From Paludibacterium sp. (GTDB lineage: Bacteria; Pseudomonadota; Gammaproteobacteria; Burkholderiales; Chromobacteriaceae), in assembly GCF_019232825.1 (NCBI RefSeq), contig NZ_JAFAND010000127.1:1-64000 (forward strand): a stretch of 64,000 nt of DNA, read 5' to 3'. This document shows positions 7,662 through 53,484 of the stretch, piece by piece. Below the pieces are notes generated by a model. It was not told where the DNA came from and ran no database searches. It saw nothing but the letters and a program-made list of their open reading frames with translations. Each line of letters opens with the position of its first letter. Position 1 is the first letter of the stretch. The position numbers and the translations under genes are program-made.

Positions 7662-7885
7662 TCGACAGGCTCGGCAGCCTCTTCCGCGGCATACTCCAGA
7701 ATGTCCCCCGGCTGGCACGCCAGCGCGCGGCAAATCGCGTCGAGCGTGCTCAGACGCAACCCTTTGACCTTACCCTGTTTCAGCAGCGACAGGTTCTGCT
7801 CGGTAATATCGATCATGGCGGCAAGATCCTTGGATTTGATCTTGCGGCGGGCAAGCATGACGTCCAATCGAATGACAATCGCCAT
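7658..7885 (-). CDS. small XRE-family (Cro/CI) transcriptional regulator
   Basis: A 75-aa protein that is almost entirely a helix-turn-helix domain (about residues 14-65: KIKSKDLAAMIDITEQNLSLLK). It is the YozG-like type that usually accompanies DUF2975 membrane proteins. The ATG at 7885 is preceded by AAAGGG. It lies 11 bp after the DUF2975 gene on the same strand, so the two should form an operon. It ends in a TAG supplied by a mobile-element relic. Confidence 0.85.
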   Translation of the reverse strand: MAIVIRLDVMLARRKIKSKDLAAMIDITEQNLSLLKQGKVKGLRLSTLDAICRALACQPGDILEYAAEEAAEPVD

Positions 7886-7896
7886 ACGGCGCCCTT

Positions 7897-8451
7897 TCAA
7901 ATGAATTGCTGGTTTTCCTGCTCGACCGCGACACCCGCGCGCAGCACGTGCGCAATCACCGCGAGGCAACCGGCCAAATACAGCGCAACCAGATCCGGCG
8001 ACCCCAACGACAGCGACACCACATGTCCGCCAGCGGGGGCGGTCGCGGTCAACCACATACTGAGCGCCGGTTCGGACACCAGCGACAGCCCCACCCACAG
8101 AGCGATGTAACGTGCGATGCGGCTCATCAGCTCGGCCGTATGCTCGGAGAAATACGCGCGCCTGCTAAATGCGTGGAACAACCCGCGCGAGCACCAGAAT
8201 GCGGCGGCAAGCGCGGTGAGTGGAATGCTGCTAATCGCGGCGGCACCGAACAACTGCCAACCGGCAAGGGAAGCCAAGTCGACGTGCCAACGGGCTGCAG
8301 CGCCTTCCGGCATGCCGAAGCGCAGACCGTATTGTTGCGCGATGTCGGGATTAAACCAGCACAACACGTTCAACAACAAGGTCGCGGCTACCAAAGCAGT
8401 TGATATCGCGGCCAACGCGGCGCTTAGCTTCGAGATTTGTTGCGAGGTCAT
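7897..8451 (-). CDS. DUF2975 membrane protein
   Basis: A 184-aa integral membrane protein with about four hydrophobic segments (roughly residues 10-30, 62-85, 110-135 and 150-175), fitting the DUF2975 family. These proteins typically pair with a small XRE regulator, as here. The function is unknown; a role in sensing membrane or nutritional state and controlling the partner regulator is inference. The ATG at 8451 was chosen because GGAGC lies just upstream; a longer frame to 8577 has no ribosome-binding site. Confidence 0.75.
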   Translation of the reverse strand: MTSQQISKLSAALAAISTALVAATLLLNVLCWFNPDIAQQYGLRFGMPEGAAARWHVDLASLAGWQLFGAAAISSIPLTALAAAFWCSRGLFHAFSRRAYFSEHTAELMSRIARYIALWVGLSLVSEPALSMWLTATAPAGGHVVSLSLGSPDLVALYLAGCLAVIAHVLRAGVAVEQENQQFI

Positions 8452-8577
8452 GTAAGCTCCGATTAAAGAGATAAATACATAAATTATCGTAGCACAATCA
8501 TTTATATTTACAAAAGGATAATTCTTAAACAAGAAAGCCGACGCAAAACGCCGGCCAGGTTGATTCGTGCGCGCCAA

Positions 8578-8676
8578 TTAGGATATGCCGCGGAAGACCG
8601 CACTCACCGTGTCAATGGCAATCGAGACCTGGATCATGGCCAGCGGCCGCAGCCGCTTGGCGATACTCAGGAGCAG
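8578..8676 (-). pseudogene. unrecognised membrane-protein fragment
   Basis: The minus strand reads LLLSIAKRLRPLAM and about 20 more mostly hydrophobic residues before a stop at 8578-8580; an in-frame stop precedes it. The pattern weakly resembles residues of the neighbouring DUF2975 protein around its third membrane segment, so it may be the remains of a second DUF2975 gene. The match is too short to be sure. Confidence 0.25.
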
Positions 8677-8788
8677 CGACTATTTTTTCCTGAAGATCAA
8701 AGCCGCCTTCCCCGGTAATCCGTGAAGAACATCGAGTAGGAGGCGGGGTCTCCCCGCCATCCTCGTGAGTGCGCCCTGCCGGGCGCGC

Positions 8789-8819
8789 AAAAAAAATGGG
8801 CCGGCTTGAAGGCCGGCCC
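8789..8819 (-). terminator. rho-independent terminator (minus strand)
   Basis: GGGCCGGC (8798-8805) and GCCGGCCC (8812-8819) form a perfect 8-bp stem. Read on the minus strand it is followed by a run of eight T (8796-8789). It would have ended transcription of the now decayed gene just upstream (8898-9091). Confidence 0.75.
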
Positions 8820-8897
8820 TAATCAACGCTCGTTATGGGACATACGGAGAAAACGTCTTCCGCAATGGTGCCCACACAGCACACAGGGAACTGGTTG

Positions 8898-9091
8898 CTA
8901 CAAATACATCACGACCGTGGTATCACCACAATCGCCAACAAAATCTTCAGACCGGCGGTTATAATCACGTCCGGAAACCCTTCGCCTGGAAGCCATCCCA
9001 GCCAGAGCACCCCGAGTACCAGGAACATCCCTAATACCCCGGCGGGTACCGCTGGCAGGAACTGACTCACAACACAACACAGGGAGAGTCG
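8898..9091 (-). pseudogene. decayed cidA/lrgA-like holin gene
   Basis: On the minus strand a frame without a normal start (or with GTG at 9070) reads LPAVPAGVLGMFLVLGVLWL, matching the conserved PxPG-x-VLGM first-membrane-segment motif of CidA/LrgA proteins. It continues through a second hydrophobic stretch to VVIPRS and a stop at 8909. One frame over, the sequence resumes as TTVVMYL with a stop at 8898, matching the family's FVPxxVGxM context. Both ends are missing compared with the usual ~120-aa protein, and a frameshift is present. The adjacent divergent LysR gene is of the kind that controls cid/lrg genes, supporting the assignment. Confidence 0.5.
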
Positions 9092-9166
9092 TTAGTATAG
9101 GGTCGCTGCTAATATTCTAAAAATGAATTAAAATTATAAAATCGATTCCAATTTAGAATGTGATAA

Positions 9167-10057
9167 ATGGACATCCGCGCCCTACGCTACTTCACCGAAG
9201 TCGTTCGCCAACAAAGCTTTACCCGTGCCGCCGAACGCTTGTTCGTCACCCAACCCACGATCAGCAAGATGATGAAACAGCTCGAGGACGAGCTGGGCGT
9301 GCCGCTCTTTATCCGCGAAGGCCGCAGTTTTCGTCTGACCGACGCCGGCCGGGTCGCCTTTGAACGCGGCCAGGATGTACTCTCGGCGATGACGCGCATG
9401 AAAACCGAACTCGCCGATCTGGTGTCGTTGGAACGGGGCGAGCTGATGGTGGGCCTGCCGCCGATGTCGGGCGGCGCCTTCTTGGCCCCGGTTGTCAGCA
9501 CATTCCGAGAACGCTATCCGAATATCGAACTCAAAGTAGTGGAAGACGGCGCGGTCGCGATCGAAAACAGTGTCAAGAGTGGCCAATTGGAAATCGGCGC
9601 CGCGGTGCTGCCGGTGGACACGCAAGTCTTCGAGCAATTCGGTTTCGCCCGCGACCCGCTGTGCGTGGTGGCGCCGGCCGGCTCGCCCTGGCACGGTAAG
9701 GCCTCGGTGCACCTGGCCGATGTGGCCGATTGGCCGATCGTGTTCTTCCCGGAGGACTTCACGTTGAGCCGGCGCATCCGCGCCGGCTTCGCCCGGCTCG
9801 GCGTGCCGATGCGCATCGCCGGCCGAAGCGCTCACTGGGACTTCATTGTCGCCATGGTCAACGCCAACCTGGGCATCGCGCTGCTGCCGCACTCGGTGGC
9901 GGAACGGCTCGACGCCCACGCCTTCGACGTGATCCTGCTCGACGAGGAGCAGATCGTGTGGAGCCTGGGGCTGATCTGGCAGAAAGACGTTTACTTATCG
10001 CACGCTGCGCGCGCCTGGATTCAGGTCACGCAGGAAATTTTAGGGAAATTGCCATGA
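9167..10057 (+). CDS. LysR-family regulator (CidR-like)
   Basis: A 296-aa LysR-type regulator. The N-terminal winged helix covers about residues 1-60 (SFTRAAERLFVTQPTISKMMKQLE), followed by a periplasmic-binding-like effector domain. Its pattern, including VNANLGIALLPHSVAERL, resembles the CynR/CidR branch that controls murein-hydrolase exporter genes in response to acetate or overflow metabolism. It is divergent from a decayed cidA/lrgA relic, so its original target seems to have been lost. Its stop overlaps the start of the next gene (ATGA). Confidence 0.82.
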   Translation: MDIRALRYFTEVVRQQSFTRAAERLFVTQPTISKMMKQLEDELGVPLFIREGRSFRLTDAGRVAFERGQDVLSAMTRMKTELADLVSLERGELMVGLPPMSGGAFLAPVVSTFRERYPNIELKVVEDGAVAIENSVKSGQLEIGAAVLPVDTQVFEQFGFARDPLCVVAPAGSPWHGKASVHLADVADWPIVFFPEDFTLSRRIRAGFARLGVPMRIAGRSAHWDFIVAMVNANLGIALLPHSVAERLDAHAFDVILLDEEQIVWSLGLIWQKDVYLSHAARAWIQVTQEILGKLP

Positions 10058-10509
10058 AAAACACCCTGCGCCGCCTCGCCCTACTGGCGACTTTGAGCCT
10101 GCTGGCCGCCTGTGGCAGCCTGAACTTGAAGAAACCCGAGGTGCAGGTGGCCGATATCCAGGCCGGCCACAGCACGCTGCTGCAACAGGATTTCACCGTG
10201 ACGCTGCGGGTACAGAACCCGAACGACCGCGAACTATCCGCCCGCGGTCTGGCGTTCGAGCTGAAGAGCCACGGCAAAACGTTGGCCACGGGGCTGAGCA
10301 ACCAAGCGATCTCGATCCCGGCGATGGGCGAAGGCACGGTACCGCTGACCGTGCACGCCTCGCTGCTCGACCTGATCCAGCTGGCGCAAAACGCGCTGGA
10401 GCAAGGCGACGGCACGCTGGACTACCAGATCAGCGGCTACCTCGACGGCGTCGAGGGCTGGGGACGTATCCCCTTCAAGCGCGAGGGAAATTTGAAAGTG
10501 CCGCATTGA
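10054..10509 (+). CDS. LEA14-like outer-membrane lipoprotein
   Basis: A 151-aa lipoprotein: a signal peptide ends in the lipobox LLAAC with Cys20 as the lipidated residue. The mature part is a single LEA type-2 (WHy-like) beta-sandwich domain with the motif VTLRVQNPNDRELSARGLAFEL. Bacterial members are small envelope proteins of unknown function, sometimes stress-linked. Its ATG overlaps the LysR stop by four bases (ATGA), so it is translationally coupled to the regulator. Confidence 0.82.
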   Translation: MKNTLRRLALLATLSLLAACGSLNLKKPEVQVADIQAGHSTLLQQDFTVTLRVQNPNDRELSARGLAFELKSHGKTLATGLSNQAISIPAMGEGTVPLTVHASLLDLIQLAQNALEQGDGTLDYQISGYLDGVEGWGRIPFKREGNLKVPH

Positions 10510-10530
10510 CGCAGCCTTCGGGCGAGGAGA

Positions 10531-11079
10531 ATGAGATTGCAAACCGCACTGCAGACCGAGCGGCTTTCGTTGCGCCAGGTGCAGCAACATGACTACCCGT
10601 TTTATCTGAGCCTCAACCAGATTCCGCAAGTCATGCACTTCATCGAACAGGGGCGTAGCGAGCAAAAAATCGCCGAATTGTTTGCCAAGAGCCTGCCGCC
10701 GTGGCATCAGCAGGCGGAACAGACGCTGCAATGGCTGATCGCCGAGAGAGAAACCGGCGCCTTGGTCGGTTTTTTTGGCGCTCGTTTACAAAACCCGCCG
10801 CAAGGCCCGGCCGAGATCGGCTACCGGCTGCACCCGGCCATGCAGGGCCACGGCTACGCGCAAGAGGCCGGCAGGGCCGTGCTGCGCTTTTTGTTCGAAA
10901 CCTGCGGGGTACACAAGGCGGAAGCGGTGGTCACCGGCGGCAACCAGGTGTCCAGCCGTTTGTTGGAACGGCTGGGCTTCCGCTTGGAGGGCATCCAGCG
11001 CCAGCACTATTGGATGGGCGGCGCCTGGCATGACGATTGGCACTATGGGCTGTTGGCGGATGACCCGCAGCCGGGTTAG
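10531..11079 (+). CDS. GNAT N-acetyltransferase (RimJ/RimL-like)
   Basis: A 182-aa acetyltransferase of the RimJ/RimL type, which transfers acetyl from acetyl-CoA to an amine (N-termini, small molecules). The opening TERLSLRQVQQHDY is typical. The pyrophosphate-binding loop lies in HPAMQGHGYAQEAGRAVLRFLFE (about residues 92-114), and the LLERLGFRLEG block follows. The substrate is unknown. It has a GAGGAG site directly before the ATG. The stop TTAGGG resembles an element-end signature seen at several gene ends here, and the 3' end overlaps the convergent gene by four bases. Confidence 0.82.
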   Translation: MRLQTALQTERLSLRQVQQHDYPFYLSLNQIPQVMHFIEQGRSEQKIAELFAKSLPPWHQQAEQTLQWLIAERETGALVGFFGARLQNPPQGPAEIGYRLHPAMQGHGYAQEAGRAVLRFLFETCGVHKAEAVVTGGNQVSSRLLERLGFRLEGIQRQHYWMGGAWHDDWHYGLLADDPQPG

Positions 11080-11783
11080 GGTTTATCCGGGTGCACCGGC
11101 CCCGCGGCAAAGCTGGTGCCGCCGCCGGTGGCATCCGGAATGAAGGTCATCGCCACGTCCTGCATTTTCCCGCACAGTCTGAACGTCCAGATTTCGTTCC
11201 AAACGCCCTTGAACGTTTTATCGCCTTCGACGACGTCGTGCGCCGGGGTCGTGACGCGCATATCGAAAACGTCGATTTGCCTGCAATCCTTCTGCCCGGT
11301 GCTCACGACGGCCGTCATCAGCGCGGACTTCATCGCATCCGCGACCAAAACCGGGCCCGCATTGGTCGAACCGGGGATGTAGGCTTTCGCCGCAGGCGCA
11401 TCGCCGTTGGCGTTGGCCAGGAAGAACGCGTTATAGAACTTGGCCTCGCCGCAACGCTCAAGCTGGTAGCGCGCCATCCACAAACCCTTGGTGGGGTTCG
11501 CTTTGCCGGCCTCAAAGCTTATCGGCTTTAACACCACGATGCTGAATGGCTTCACTTGATATTGCGATTTACAGTCCGGTTTCAGGCCGAATTTCTTGTC
11601 TTGCTCCACCCCAAACCGAAACATCTCCTCCGCCAGCGGCGGGGAAAAGACATAGTCGAGCGCCGGCTTATTATTGTGCAGATCGGCCGCCGTATTGATG
11701 ACCGTATCGGCCTGAGCAACACGCGCCAGCATGAACGTGGCAACAAAAACGGCGGCCAGCACCGCCAGATTTTTTTTGATCAT
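11076..11783 (-). CDS. hypothetical secreted protein
   Basis: A 235-aa protein with a clear N-terminal signal peptide (hydrophobic residues 6-20, probable cleavage after RVAQA at about residue 25). The mature part has four Cys residues that could form disulfides in the periplasm. It has no recognised catalytic motif. The gene stands alone between two + strand acetyltransferase genes. Function is unknown; it is probably a conserved exported protein, as composition and codon use match the neighbours. Confidence 0.65.
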   Translation of the reverse strand: MIKKNLAVLAAVFVATFMLARVAQADTVINTAADLHNNKPALDYVFSPPLAEEMFRFGVEQDKKFGLKPDCKSQYQVKPFSIVVLKPISFEAGKANPTKGLWMARYQLERCGEAKFYNAFFLANANGDAPAAKAYIPGSTNAGPVLVADAMKSALMTAVVSTGQKDCRQIDVFDMRVTTPAHDVVEGDKTFKGVWNEIWTFRLCGKMQDVAMTFIPDATGGGTSFAAGPVHPDKP

Positions 11784-49381: not shown

Positions 49382-49443
49382 ACCCGCCCTCCCTGGGGCC
49401 TGAGAGTTTGCTCGCCTCCCCCGATCCTAACCCTTGGTTCTAG

Positions 49444-49708
49444 GGCCTGTCTGCAAACTATTTGCGGCTGCGGCCAGTGTCCGCCGGATGCAGCGCGAGG
49501 AGTGCGCCCCGCCGCAGTGTCATTCACTGCCAGGGGCAAACGACAAAGCGATGCGCCGGCAGACGCCGGCCCCGAAGGGCTGGTCTGGCAAACGGCCATC
49601 TGCGTCGTTGCGCGGCTTGGCCTTAGAATGACTAAGGCCGGCGCCCCCCGCCTAGCATCTGGCCGTTTGTCAGGCCAGCGCAGTTCACAAATAGTTTGCA
49701 GACAGGCC
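49444..49708. mobile_element. 265-bp non-autonomous element (MITE), copy 2
   Basis: 21-bp perfect terminal inverted repeats beginning GGCCTGTCTGCAAACTATTT, flanked by CTAG on both sides (49440-49443 and 49709-49712), again a YTAR target. No transposase gene. Internal hairpins: GCAGTG-TCATT-CACTGC (49514-49530) and GGCCTTAG-AATGA-CTAAGGCC (49619-49639). The first begins 70 bp from the left end, exactly as in the element at 17380. The interiors share the GTTGCGC...CTTGGC...AGAATGACT framework but not the stems. Confidence 0.85.
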
Positions 49709-49754
49709 CTAGTCCGAGGCGAGGTTCTCACCCCTGTCAATTCAATACGGGTTG

Positions 49755-49760: not shown

Positions 49761-49850
49761 TGATATAACAATTTTTTTGTCATAGTGTTCGAGGGCCGCC
49801 GCGTCAGGCGGTTTCCCCTCACTGTAGTTCCCATCTGAAAGGGCATCACT

Positions 49851-50075
49851 ATGACGACCAAACCCGTTGTCGACCTCAGCAATGCCAGCAACGAGGATTT
49901 GAAACAAATCCACAGCGCGGTATTGCAGCAATTGACCTCGCGCGCCATGAATCCCGCCACGCTGGCAGACGGCTACGACCGCCACGGCAGTGGCCACTCG
50001 CGTTCCGGCGGCAATCCGATGACTCAGCAGCAAGTCGTCGATCCCGCCAACGTCGCTGCCGCGCGCGGAGGCTGA
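49851..50075 (+). CDS. RiPP precursor peptide
   Basis: A 74-aa peptide encoded directly before a radical SAM maturase and read on the same strand. Residues 1-40 are a typical Asn/Leu/Gln-rich leader (NEDLKQIHSAVLQQL is helical). The likely modified core is GYDRHGSGHSRSGGN (41-55), unusually rich in Gly, Ser, His and Arg with a single Tyr42, and it is followed by a tail ending ARGG. Tyr42-Asp43-Arg44 is a three-residue unit of the kind joined by cyclophane-forming enzymes. AAGGG precedes the ATG. It has no signal peptide. Assignment rests on context and composition, not on a recognised sequence family. Confidence 0.7.
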   Translation: MTTKPVVDLSNASNEDLKQIHSAVLQQLTSRAMNPATLADGYDRHGSGHSRSGGNPMTQQQVVDPANVAAARGG

Positions 50076-50079
50076 GATC

Positions 50080-51261
50080 GTGAGCACAGTGGCTCGGGGG
50101 GCCGCCCAAGCGCTCGACTGGATCGTGCTGAAGGTGGTGCAGCGCTGCAATCTCAACTGCACCTACTGCTACGTCTATAACCGCGGCGACGATTCGTGGA
50201 AGTCGCGTCCGCCGATCATTACCGATGCCGTCGTCGACCAACTGGCCGCGCGCATCGTCGCGCATTGCGCCCGGCATGGCTTGAACGCCTTCGTCATCGA
50301 ACTGCACGGCGGCGAACCGCTGCTGTTGGGCAAGCGGCGCATGCAGCGCCTGATCGACACGCTGCGCGCGCGCACGGCGCCGATCACCTTGCGCTTCATC
50401 CTGCAAACCAACGGGCTGCTGCTGGACCAGGAATGGCTGGCGCTGTTCGACCGCAACGCCATGTCTTTCGGCATCAGCCTAGACGGCCCGCCGGAAGTGG
50501 CCGACCGTTTCCGCATCCAGCGCAATGGCCGCGGGTCGACACAGAAGCTCCTCGACAAAATTCGCACGCTGCGCGCGGCCGGACCGGACTTCGACCGGCT
50601 CATGGGCAGCATTCTATGCGTCGTCAACCCGGCCTTGCATGGCGGCAAACTCGTGCAGTGGTTTATTGACAATGGCTTTGACGCCTTTGAGTTTTTGCTG
50701 CCGGACGGCAATTACGCCAACTACCCGCAAGGTTGGACCGGCGTCGCGCCCTATCGCCGCTTTCTACTCGAAGCGTTCGACGCCTGGTATGCGCTGGGGA
50801 GCCACGCGCCGCAGATTCGCTTGTTCGAAATGATGATGCTGGGATTCATGGGAATCAAATCGCCGCTTGACGCGCTGGGCGGGGATTTGCGCCGGCTGTG
50901 CGTGGTCGAGTCGGACGGCTCGATCGGCATCAGCGACGTGGTGCGCATGTGCGGCGGCGAATTTGCCAACGACAAGCTGAACATTTTCCGGCATCCGCTC
51001 GATCTGCATGCATCGGTCTATCAACTGTCGCAACTGCAGCGCCCCTGCGCGCAATGCCAAGCCTGCCCGCACCTGGCGAGCTGCGGCGGCGGCTACTTGC
51101 CGCACCGTTTCGACGGCAGCGGCTTCGATCACCCGTCGATTTATTGCCAAGCGCTGTACGCGCTGGCCGAGCGCATGTTGCGCGCGATCCGGCGCGACCT
51201 GCCGCCGACGCTGCTCAGCGATCCGACCTGCAGCCTTTGGACAGCCGACCTGGCTGAATGA
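50080..51261 (+). CDS. FxsB-like radical SAM/SPASM peptide maturase
   Basis: A 393-aa radical SAM protein. The CxxxCxxC motif binding the SAM [4Fe-4S] cluster is CNLNCTYC (Cys23, 27, 30), HGGEPLLLGK follows, and the C terminus has a SPASM-type set of cysteines (CVVE, CGGE, CAQCQACPHLASCGGGYLPHRF, IYCQ). The whole pattern follows FxsB maturases, which join an aromatic side chain to a nearby backbone or side-chain carbon to make cyclophanes. A GTG start at 50080 lies five bases after the precursor stop, with GGAGG upstream. Unlike many FxsB proteins it has no fused HExxH part; that part is encoded separately downstream. Confidence 0.87.
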   Translation: MSTVARGAAQALDWIVLKVVQRCNLNCTYCYVYNRGDDSWKSRPPIITDAVVDQLAARIVAHCARHGLNAFVIELHGGEPLLLGKRRMQRLIDTLRARTAPITLRFILQTNGLLLDQEWLALFDRNAMSFGISLDGPPEVADRFRIQRNGRGSTQKLLDKIRTLRAAGPDFDRLMGSILCVVNPALHGGKLVQWFIDNGFDAFEFLLPDGNYANYPQGWTGVAPYRRFLLEAFDAWYALGSHAPQIRLFEMMMLGFMGIKSPLDALGGDLRRLCVVESDGSIGISDVVRMCGGEFANDKLNIFRHPLDLHASVYQLSQLQRPCAQCQACPHLASCGGGYLPHRFDGSGFDHPSIYCQALYALAERMLRAIRRDLPPTLLSDPTCSLWTADLAE

Positions 51262-52472
51262 CCATGCCGATAGAAACGCACGAAAACCGCTACCGTCAAT
51301 TCGCCAACCCGCAGACCCCATTCGATCCGGCGCTGTTCGACGCCGTGGTGCAATGCCATGCGCAAGCGGTGCTGGACCTATTTCTCGAACGGCGAGCGGC
51401 GCAGATCGCCGAGCAGAGCGACGGCGTCGCGCCGCTGATTGCGCGCTGGCGCCAAATCGCGCGCACAGCCGAGGCGGCGACGCATATCGCCTGGGACATG
51501 GCGTTTGGCCGGGTGCAATGGGCACTGGAAACCGACGAGGTCGATCCGGCGGATGTCGCTTTGCACCTGGCGCTTCATCTGTCGGCGCAAGGCCTGCCCG
51601 GGCAGTGGCATGGCCGGCTGCGGGCGGGAGGCGTCATGCGCTGGGGGCGCTGGCTCTTGCCCGTCGCGCAGGATATCGCGGTTGACAGCGATGGCCGCGT
51701 GGCGCGGGTGACGTTTATCGACGCCGAACGCGGCGAGCCATGCGAAAGCGTATTTCACGCCCACGCCGATGGCTGGCGCTGCGACAGGCCGCCCATGTTG
51801 CAGCAAACCGGCACGCGCCAACCGATCCTGCTCTTGCCCGAGCGGGCCATCCGCGGCCAACTGACGTTAGAGGATCAGTTCGGCAGCATCGTCGGCTATC
51901 CCGAACCGACGGCGGCCATGGCCGACACGCTGACACAGGCGCTCGGCCTGCTCGCGCGCTATGCGCCAGACTATTTGGTTTGGGTCGAGCGCGTGATTCG
52001 CGGCGTAGTGATCTGCCAGTGCCGGGAAACACGCACGCGCAGCAGCACCTGGTCCGAGGCGCCCGGCATCATCCTGCTGTCACACACCACCGATGCGGTG
52101 ACGGTGGCCGAGATGCTGGTTCATGAGGCCTCGCACCAGTACTACCATGTGGTCGGGCGCGTCGGCAAAGTCGACGACGGCAGCGATACACGGCTGTATT
52201 TCTCGCCGGCGGTGGCGCGCGAGCGGCCCCTCTCGCGCGTGTTGATCGCCTATCATGCCTTTGCCAACATTCTGCTGATGTATCGTGCCTTCCGCCAAAA
52301 TGGTCTGCCCGAGGCCGGCACCGAATGGGCGCGGACCGCCGAGCGCATGGAAAGCGACGTCGGCGTGCTGGAGGCCCCGCTCATCGGCAATCCGGCATTG
52401 ACGGGCTATGGCAGGGCGCTGTTCACGTCCCTCTCCCAACGGGTTCACCGGCGGGAGGCCATCGATGGCTGA
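51258..52472 (+). CDS. HExxH-type peptide beta-hydroxylase-like protein 1
   Basis: A 404-aa protein with the metal-binding motif HEASH (His289, Glu290, His293) in a LVHEASHQYYHVV context, followed by LYFSPAVARERPLSRVLIAYHAFANILL, with a later His333. This is the pattern of the alpha-ketoglutarate-type HExxH proteins that accompany cyclophane RiPP maturases and hydroxylate the peptide. The first 180 residues have no recognised domain and may bind the leader. The ATG overlaps the radical SAM stop (ATGA). Family assignment is from motif and context, and activity is inference. Confidence 0.75.
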   Translation: MTMPIETHENRYRQFANPQTPFDPALFDAVVQCHAQAVLDLFLERRAAQIAEQSDGVAPLIARWRQIARTAEAATHIAWDMAFGRVQWALETDEVDPADVALHLALHLSAQGLPGQWHGRLRAGGVMRWGRWLLPVAQDIAVDSDGRVARVTFIDAERGEPCESVFHAHADGWRCDRPPMLQQTGTRQPILLLPERAIRGQLTLEDQFGSIVGYPEPTAAMADTLTQALGLLARYAPDYLVWVERVIRGVVICQCRETRTRSSTWSEAPGIILLSHTTDAVTVAEMLVHEASHQYYHVVGRVGKVDDGSDTRLYFSPAVARERPLSRVLIAYHAFANILLMYRAFRQNGLPEAGTEWARTAERMESDVGVLEAPLIGNPALTGYGRALFTSLSQRVHRREAIDG

Positions 52473-53484
52473 TCCCCCGGCGGTGGCCCTCACGGACCTA
52501 CCGTCTCTGCTCGCCTGGGAAGCGTCGCCCGGCGCATGGCGCCCATGGCGGACGATGTACGATGCCTTCTTGTGGCGGCGTGCCCGCGCCTTGTGCGCAC
52601 AAAACCCCGACGATGCCTGCATCGCCCTGGCGCTGCAGGCGTTACCGCCGGCCAAGCGGCGGCGCTTCTTGCGCACGCCGCAGGTCGCCCGCCTGCTCTA
52701 CCGTCAAGATGGCGAACACCCGTGGCGCGGCGGCGCGACCTTTGCGCGCGAACTCCTGGCGGAGCTCGGCTCCGCGCTCCCGCGCGATCGCGGCAACACC
52801 TTGCTGCCCGCCGCCTTGACGCTGGACATCGATGGCGACGCCCCTTTTCCTGACGAGGACGACGGCTTTGCCACCCTTTGCTATCGGCCAGGCGAGTGCG
52901 ACCGGGTCGTGAGCAAATTGCGCGATGCCATGATGGCGCTAAGACGGCTGTCGCCGACAATCGCGGCGCTCGTGACCTCCTGGATCTCTGTGCTGGCGTT
53001 GCGCCGCCAGCCAGGCAAACCCAATGCGCTCTTTTCCAGCACCTTCAGCCATGCCGTGGGTCTGGTGCGCATTACCAACGCCCATTTGGCCGAAGCCGAC
53101 AGGACCTCGCTGATGGACGCGCTGGTCCACGAGGCGATTCACAGCCTGCTGTATGGCTACGAGGAGTCGCGCGCACCGTTTCAGACGGAGCCGGCCTGGC
53201 GGGTGCCCATCCGTTCACCGTGGACCGGTGCCACTTTGGCCCTGCCATCGTATCTGCAAGCTTGCTTGGTCTGGTACGGCCTCTATCATTTATGGCGCCT
53301 CGCCCAGCGTGCCGGATTCGGGCCTGCCGAACGCGTGGCAGCGCTCGCCGGGCGCGCGCGCACCGGCTTTCATCACCGGCCGGTATCCCAGGGGCTGGCC
53401 GATTATCACGCCTGGGTCGCCCCCGATTGCCTAGCGCTGCTGTACACGATCGAGGGGCGGATGTTGAACGAAGTCTGGGTATGA
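52465..53484 (+). CDS. HExxH-type protein 2
   Basis: A 339-aa protein with a second, different HExxH site, HEAIH (His222, Glu223, His226), followed by an aromatic-rich segment with SPWTGATLALPSYLQACLVWYGL and a final His-rich part (GFHHRPVSQGLADYHAW) that could supply a third metal ligand. Outside the motif it has little visible similarity to the preceding protein. It may be a peptidase, a second hydroxylase or a partner of the first. The start ATG at 52465 overlaps the end of the first HExxH gene by eight bases and has GGGAGG upstream. Confidence 0.7.
   Translation: MADPPAVALTDLPSLLAWEASPGAWRPWRTMYDAFLWRRARALCAQNPDDACIALALQALPPAKRRRFLRTPQVARLLYRQDGEHPWRGGATFARELLAELGSALPRDRGNTLLPAALTLDIDGDAPFPDEDDGFATLCYRPGECDRVVSKLRDAMMALRRLSPTIAALVTSWISVLALRRQPGKPNALFSSTFSHAVGLVRITNAHLAEADRTSLMDALVHEAIHSLLYGYEESRAPFQTEPAWRVPIRSPWTGATLALPSYLQACLVWYGLYHLWRLAQRAGFGPAERVAALAGRARTGFHHRPVSQGLADYHAWVAPDCLALLYTIEGRMLNEVWV

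Follow-up and report, generated by a model that had tools for sequence, protein, structure and literature searches.

The radical S-adenosylmethionine (SAM) enzyme YhhB is reported to join C3 of tyrosine and C2 of histidine to the β-carbon of arginine (PMC11002830). The fused protein ChlBH is described as hydroxylating aspartate and histidine residues, a reaction that depends on prior ring formation (PMC12636437). Reported targets of the α-ketoglutarate-dependent HExxH (αKG-HExxH) family include glutamine, proline, phenylalanine and the peptide backbone (PMC12636437, PMC13060819), and for this family, as for the multinuclear non-heme iron-dependent oxidative enzymes (MNIOs), the authors of the nitrilobacillin study state that the transformations "at present cannot be predicted" (PMC13060819). 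Here we describe a cassette of four genes in a 64,000-nucleotide stretch of a Paludibacterium sp. genome (contig NZ_JAFAND010000127.1, positions 1 to 64,000; hereafter the window). The genes encode a 74-aa peptide, a SPASM radical SAM protein and two HExxH proteins, A and B (Table 1). We propose, with a probability of about two in three, that the product is a triceptide-like ribosomally synthesized and post-translationally modified peptide (RiPP): up to three tandem rings would be closed in its core by the radical SAM enzyme, and A and B would then hydroxylate the ringed core.

The leader of the peptide (about residues 1-40, DLSNASNEDLKQIHSAVLQQL) is conserved in part. The core at residues 41-54, GYDRHGSGHSRSGG, is identical in the window, Paludibacterium purpuratum (locus L007) and Collimonas (L008). 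A 13-residue stretch, YDRHGSGHSRSGG, is likewise unchanged in these three loci, with 7 of its 13 codons differing between the window and L007. Rich in histidine and tyrosine, the core can be divided into three successive aromatic-X-X units, YDR-HGS-G-HSR, as in triceptide precursors, and up to three rings are therefore expected. We aligned seven precursors of the clade, from the window, L007, L008, Rhodococcus (L045), L027, Mesorhizobium (L009) and Pantoea (L010). Only His45, Ser47 and His49 are invariant in all seven; position 43 is aspartate in six rows and position 42 tyrosine in five. Position 44 is arginine in four rows, lysine in Rhodococcus, serine in a Chloroflexi metagenome-assembled genome and aspartate in Pantoea. 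The Tyr-Arg and His-Arg links reported for YhhB match YDR and HSR of this core; we expect these two to be the best-precedented ring sites and HGS to be the best conserved one.

The window, L007 and L008 share one gene order, precursor, radical SAM, A and B, and the radical SAM protein of the window is 84% identical to that of L007 and 70% to that of L008. Comparison with L007 gives synonymous (dS) and nonsynonymous (dN) divergences of 1.14 and 0.066 for the precursor gene, 0.84 and 0.092 for the radical SAM gene, 1.25 and 0.207 for the A gene, and 1.50 and 0.292 for the B gene. The 74-aa peptide is under purifying selection. A preliminary description of this DNA, made from its letters alone, had rightly placed the core at residues 41-55. 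It had proposed looking for conserved co-occurrence of the genes, and the four-gene set does recur in L007 and L008, with the 74-aa frame and its core preserved. A combination limited to a single genome is contradicted by the same loci, and by L023 (Paracaedibacter), where A, B and the radical SAM gene stand together in another order. It had also suggested a database search of the precursor: the core is conserved in relatives, and no NCBIfam family matches.

The radical SAM protein is homologous to known three-residue cyclophane-forming enzymes (3-CyFEs). Among curated models it matches YhhB best (NF041707; 295.2 bits, E-value = 6e-88), and FxsB (TIGR04269) scores 274.2 bits (E-value = 1.5e-81). 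Of the solved structures, the crystal structure of ChlB (PDB 9gm3, E-value = 3.1e-58) is nearest in sequence, and the alignment takes in the CxxxCxxC motif along with several C-terminal cysteines. A phylogenetic tree of 23 radical SAM sequences groups the window with L007 and L008 (support 100/99); Rhodococcus L045, Pantoea L010 and Mesorhizobium L009 join next (98/95), apart from the YhhA-type rows. The name "FxsB-like" given earlier to this enzyme was right in pointing to a 3-CyFE-like radical SAM protein but was a loose label, YhhB and ChlB being closer and both curated cut-offs being missed.

Both HExxH proteins exceed the 40-bit cut-off of TIGR04267 (αKG-HExxH peptide β-hydroxylase), A with 94.1 bits and B with 47.9-48.1 bits, and they are the only two matches to this model in the window's genome at an E-value of 0.001. 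Their AlphaFold2 models have a mean predicted local distance difference test (pLDDT) score of 74.8 (A) and 84.4 (B). Against ChlH (PDB 8s5f), the A model gives Z = 24.1 over 297 residues (root mean square deviation 3.1) and the B model Z = 26.5 over 310 residues (4.2); against SjiH (PDB 22ob) the values are Z = 23.3 and 23.6. In Foldseek, the top match is SjiH for A and ChlH for B. The next structure matches fall to Z of about 6 to 7, and solved zinc peptidases, HExxH notwithstanding, reach about 6 or less against these predicted models. At the sequence level, ChlH is matched by a profile of five A proteins (E-value = 1.6e-9) and by one of ten B proteins (8.2e-8). We thus predict from the models that A and B have the ChlH fold. 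Their earlier designation as peptide hydroxylases agrees with the TIGR04267 scores and with the predicted folds, which favour αKG hydroxylases over peptidases.

A and B do not resemble each other closely. A tree of 26 HExxH catalytic domains places the B proteins (11 rows) in one clade (99/97) and the A proteins (6, with long branches for L010 and L023) in another (89/78); the YhhA-associated HE[AS]MH proteins (7) form a clade at 97/94 and the two domains fused to YhhB one at 100/99. The separation of the A and B clades excludes a recent duplication, and by sequence A and B belong to different subfamilies and are not near-copies. Beyond the window, L007 and L008, the two occur with a radical SAM gene in L023, in the order A-radical SAM-B. 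B is found without A, in the stretches covered, at L009, L011-L014, L018, L047, L048 and L049, and A without B at L010 and L045. Positions 6626-10233 of L023 (Candidatus Paracaedibacter symbiosus) hold, in a row, a candidate precursor gene and genes for an A-type HExxH protein, a radical SAM protein and a B-type HExxH protein.

The presence of B tracks a motif in the precursor. An aromatic-Ser-Arg/Lys/Glu triplet in the C-terminal half of the precursor is found in 12 of the 12 counted loci with B, against 2 of 30 without it (L022 and L046). The triplet is HSR in the window, HSK in L009 and L023, FSR in L011-L014, WSR (twice) in Tenacibaculum L018, and a repeated HSE in L047 and L048. Locus L027, the contig of which ends within the radical SAM gene, was set aside (its precursor holds HSK), and L049, a thirteenth B locus with no recognisable precursor, was not entered. 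This association of sequences suggests what B recognises and serves as a lead. The precursors of the Flavobacteria (L011-L014, L018) are candidates of 52-61 aa that contain FSRSTWERS or WSRSSWSRSS and adjoin both a radical SAM gene and one for a B-type HExxH protein. Those of two Rhizobium plasmids (L047, 4742-5884; L048, 4001-5899) are multi-core, with many MHDQTHSEGGG-like repeats, and directly precede the radical SAM and B-type genes.

We propose the following pathway. The leader would bring the precursor to the radical SAM enzyme, which would link the aromatic rings of Tyr42, His45 and/or His49 with the β-carbons of Arg44, Ser47 and Arg51, respectively, each two residues further along, yielding up to three tandem three-residue cyclophanes with a loss of 2 Da each. 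A and B, presumably two different iron enzymes, would then β-hydroxylate the ringed core in an αKG-dependent manner, each adding 16 Da; the order, rings before hydroxyl groups, is taken by analogy from ChlBH. Since precursors with aromatic-Ser-Arg/Lys/Glu triplets go with B-type genes, the most likely site of B would be His49-Ser-Arg51. A may act elsewhere, and as ChlBH hydroxylates aspartate and histidine, Asp43 or His45 are perhaps its prime candidates. Leader removal and export, if any, would be left to proteins encoded elsewhere. A bolder version, to which we give little credence, makes the cassette a maturation unit sufficient in itself, in which the two oxygenases divide the labour, B reading the aromatic-Ser-Arg/Lys/Glu ring and A oxidising another site; one of them may also cut the backbone oxidatively, a step that would stand in for the absent peptidase and leave a trimmed, amide-ended tri-cyclophane.

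Several observations count against the proposed pathway. The radical SAM protein stays below both cyclophane cut-offs (445 bits for YhhB, 370 bits for FxsB). The window precursor has no match to any NCBIfam model, including the YhhA model NF041705 at E-values up to 1, and Pfam gives none for the precursor, A or B; the precursors of five relatives (5/5) also lack an NCBIfam match at E-values up to 0.1, while a YhhA control (L025) matches NF041705 at 57 bits. The first and third core motifs vary in their last residue, and Pantoea has alanine at column 42 and a histidine one place earlier. A search with the single A sequence did not recover ChlH, and B alone (E-value = 0.89) or a three-row B profile (0.96) matched it weakly. 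Glutamine occupies the column of a ChlH histidine in 9 of the 13 B proteins, including that of the window. Three loci of the same clade exhibit one HExxH gene in the stretch covered (B in L009, A in L010 and L045), so that both proteins are not always needed, and the Pantoea protein, with 36.4 bits, falls under the TIGR04267 cut-off of 40. The motif tracking B was chosen after the sequences had been seen, and because of this post hoc choice, the hand-picked precursors, the related rows (L011-L014 are nearly alike) and the long Rhizobium precursors, the Fisher value of 8e-9 is not a true probability. Lastly, what is observed is gene order, selection, family membership, predicted fold and conserved residues, from which we infer all of the chemistry. 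Loss of a metal ligand by B through the glutamine was also considered; since SjiH has glutamine in the same column and the B proteins of L023, L047, L048 and L049 have histidine, we draw no conclusion from it.

Some of these points would suit a scheme in which one HExxH protein is the hydroxylase and the other a catalytically silent partner or recognition subunit: the single HExxH genes of L009, L010 and L045, the glutamine of B, and the pseudo-enzyme partners described for CorB-CorD (PMC13060819). We regard this as unlikely, given that HExxH is kept in the L007 and L008 orthologues of both A and B (the other rows were chosen by their HExxH pattern), that both genes are constrained, with dN well below dS, that B occurs without A at L009, L011-L014, L018, L047 and L048, and that SjiH shares the glutamine while the predicted folds of both proteins match ChlH. 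Still less probable is a role for one of them as a peptidase or oxidative backbone cleaver that releases the product, although it would explain the missing peptidase gene, no peptidase family being found among the flanking genes scanned, and although PflC and PosC of the same family are reported to cut the backbone oxidatively, PflC also hydrolysing it (PMC12636437). The zinc-peptidase fold matches of the predicted models reach Z of about 6, against 23-27 for ChlH and SjiH, and the sources describe backbone cleavage only for this Pseudomonas pair; a PflC-like oxidative cut in the cassette is a hypothetical possibility. The preliminary description had put a ring at Tyr42-Asp-Arg44. Such a ring is plausible, as YDR is common to most YhhA-type precursors (YDRxHNRHNR and variants) and a Tyr-Arg ring is reported for YhhB (PMC11002830). 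That it would be the single cyclophane made is doubtful: this is not the most conserved part of the core (Tyr 5/7, Arg 4/7, Ala in Pantoea), whereas His45-X-Ser47-X-His49 is invariant (7/7). A decayed or unexpressed relic with the 74-aa frame as a chance open reading frame (ORF) could be imagined from the occurrence of the radical SAM gene in only two of the six genus members examined, the window's genome included, and from the fact that no product is known; it is hardly credible for four genes with intact frames, dN far below dS against L007 and a core identical in three species. We retain the tandem-ring pathway with hydroxylation by A and B.

Table 1. Features of the cassette in the window
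Feature	Position	Strand	Remarks
RiPP precursor, 74 aa	49851..50075	+	leader ~1-40, core 41-54, variable tail
Candidate tandem cyclophane motifs Tyr42-Asp-Arg44, His45-Gly-Ser47, (Gly48), His49-Ser-Arg51	49974..50003	+	putative ring sites
SPASM radical SAM peptide maturase, 393 aa, CNLNCTYC	50080..51261	+	3-CyFE/YhhB/ChlB-like; probably a multiple-cyclophane synthase
HExxH-A (HEASH), 404 aa	51258..52472	+	TIGR04267, 94 bits; clade A
HExxH-B (HEAIH), 339 aa	52465..53484	+	TIGR04267, 48 bits; clade B; longer frame from 52408

The four genes overlap or nearly touch on one strand and carry the CNLNCTYC, HEASH and HEAIH motifs, as previously described. The precursor gene has an ATG start with a Shine-Dalgarno-like GAAAGGG and ends 4 nt ahead of the radical SAM gene; the latter starts with GTG and overlaps the A gene by 4 nt, and the A gene overlaps the B gene, for which we favour the start at 52465 over 52408 because of an upstream GGGAGG. 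The cassette is flanked by lysS on one side, and by a short unassigned minus-strand frame and then a phosphoesterase gene on the other. The LysS protein is 96% identical to that of the genus mate G003, which, together with the flanks shared with L007, points to a probable Paludibacterium. No exporter or peptidase had been seen here before, and a Pfam scan that took in, of all the frames in the window outside the cassette, only seven flanking proteins (two of them without any match) and the phosphoesterase likewise revealed no transporter or peptidase family. The pfl cluster, as described, also has no nearby protease gene (PMC12636437).

When genomes were scanned with the radical SAM protein, 36 of 48 pattern matches were relatives. 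Three of 200 genomes of relatives match at E-values of 1e-40 or below (the window's own, G003 with 84% and G152 with 33% identity), and one of 369 drawn genomes of the class, again the window's own, matches at 1e-75; the cassette is therefore rare and patchy in this sample. The precursor has no match in plasmid records. About 1.7 kb separate lysS from the phosphoesterase gene in the genus mate G002, and this stretch exhibits no match to the cassette. The flanking genes show synteny with P. purpuratum L007, where the cassette (7706-11368, corresponding to 49773-53396 of the window) occupies the same lysS/phosphoesterase site in the opposite orientation to the flanks. Two separate acquisitions were considered as an explanation and rejected: the dS values of six flanking genes (0.27-1.46) overlap those of the cassette (0.84-1.50), so that one old cassette and an in-place inversion are enough. 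We read the L007 orientation as an in-place inversion.

A 273-bp element lies just upstream of the precursor gene (49440-49712). Its terminal inverted repeats of 25 bp, CTAGGGCCTGTCTGCAAACTATTTG, are perfect, and a second, imperfect pair is nested within them. The window's genome contains at least 52 matches to the element (40 of 80 candidates were scored), at least 11 of which, itself included, are near full length with 89-100% identity; five genus mates contain no match. It is a repeat resembling a miniature inverted-repeat transposable element, expanded in the window's genome.

Defence-like genes adjoin some relatives. Septu-like PtuA/PtuB genes stand next to the Pantoea cassette (L010, 10463-12362), a short-Argonaute pair beside yhhAB in Novosphingobium (L051, 1181-4089), and the Rhodococcus cassette has a caspase-like protein and a kinase on its flanks (L045, 2507-4399 and 8249-9301). 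We mention a defence role as a remark only, eight hand-picked neighbours of five loci having been scanned with no enrichment control.

The cassette offers a small expressible system for comparing directly the rules of two αKG-HExxH enzymes that belong to different clades and stand beside a single precursor. If B does recognise an aromatic-Ser-Arg ring, one could tell the tailoring enzyme from the sequence of the precursor. Among known systems, YhhAB(C) has a radical SAM/SPASM enzyme of the same family and precursors built of tandem aromatic-X-Arg units, mostly YDR-x-HNR-HNR. An HE[AS]MH gene follows the radical SAM gene at about 0.5 kb in 11 of 14 unfused YhhA-type loci; the one such protein tested (L025) passes TIGR04267 at 78 bits. 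In contrast, the window precursor misses NF041705 and has YDR-HGS-G-HSR with a C-terminal tail, its radical SAM enzyme reaches 295 of the required 445 bits, and the YhhA-associated HE[AS]MH proteins form a clade apart from A and B. FxsA/FxsB has a related radical SAM enzyme (TIGR04269), though the 274 bits of the window protein stay below the cut-off of 370. FxsA precursors end in an FxSxx motif, and the window precursor does not.

ChlB/ChlH of Chlorogloeopsis (PDB 9gm3, 8s5f) shares both kinds of enzyme and, as predicted for the window, their folds; ChlBH is fused, whereas the ORFs of the window are separate and its two HExxH proteins fall into different clades. SjiH (PDB 22ob, 22nu) matches A and B in fold and is known here from PDB titles only, where 22ob is called SjiH-Ni and 22nu is listed by the name of a radical SAM domain; the matches listed in a literature search included no paper on it. 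PflC/PosC, PesO and BpmH belong to the same αKG-HExxH family and likewise act in RiPP clusters, but their pathways, as described in the sources, also use MNIO enzymes and other precursors. In literature searches that also covered double HExxH cassettes, no description of this cassette was among the matches listed, which does not show absence from print, key papers being beyond reach. Judged by sequence, the cassette would work like a triceptide pathway with αKG-HExxH tailoring, outside YhhAB, FxsB and fused ChlBH by the tests applied. Its chemistry would resemble that of known triceptides, but in its peptide and in its use of two αKG-HExxH enzymes side by side it looks like a branch not described so far.

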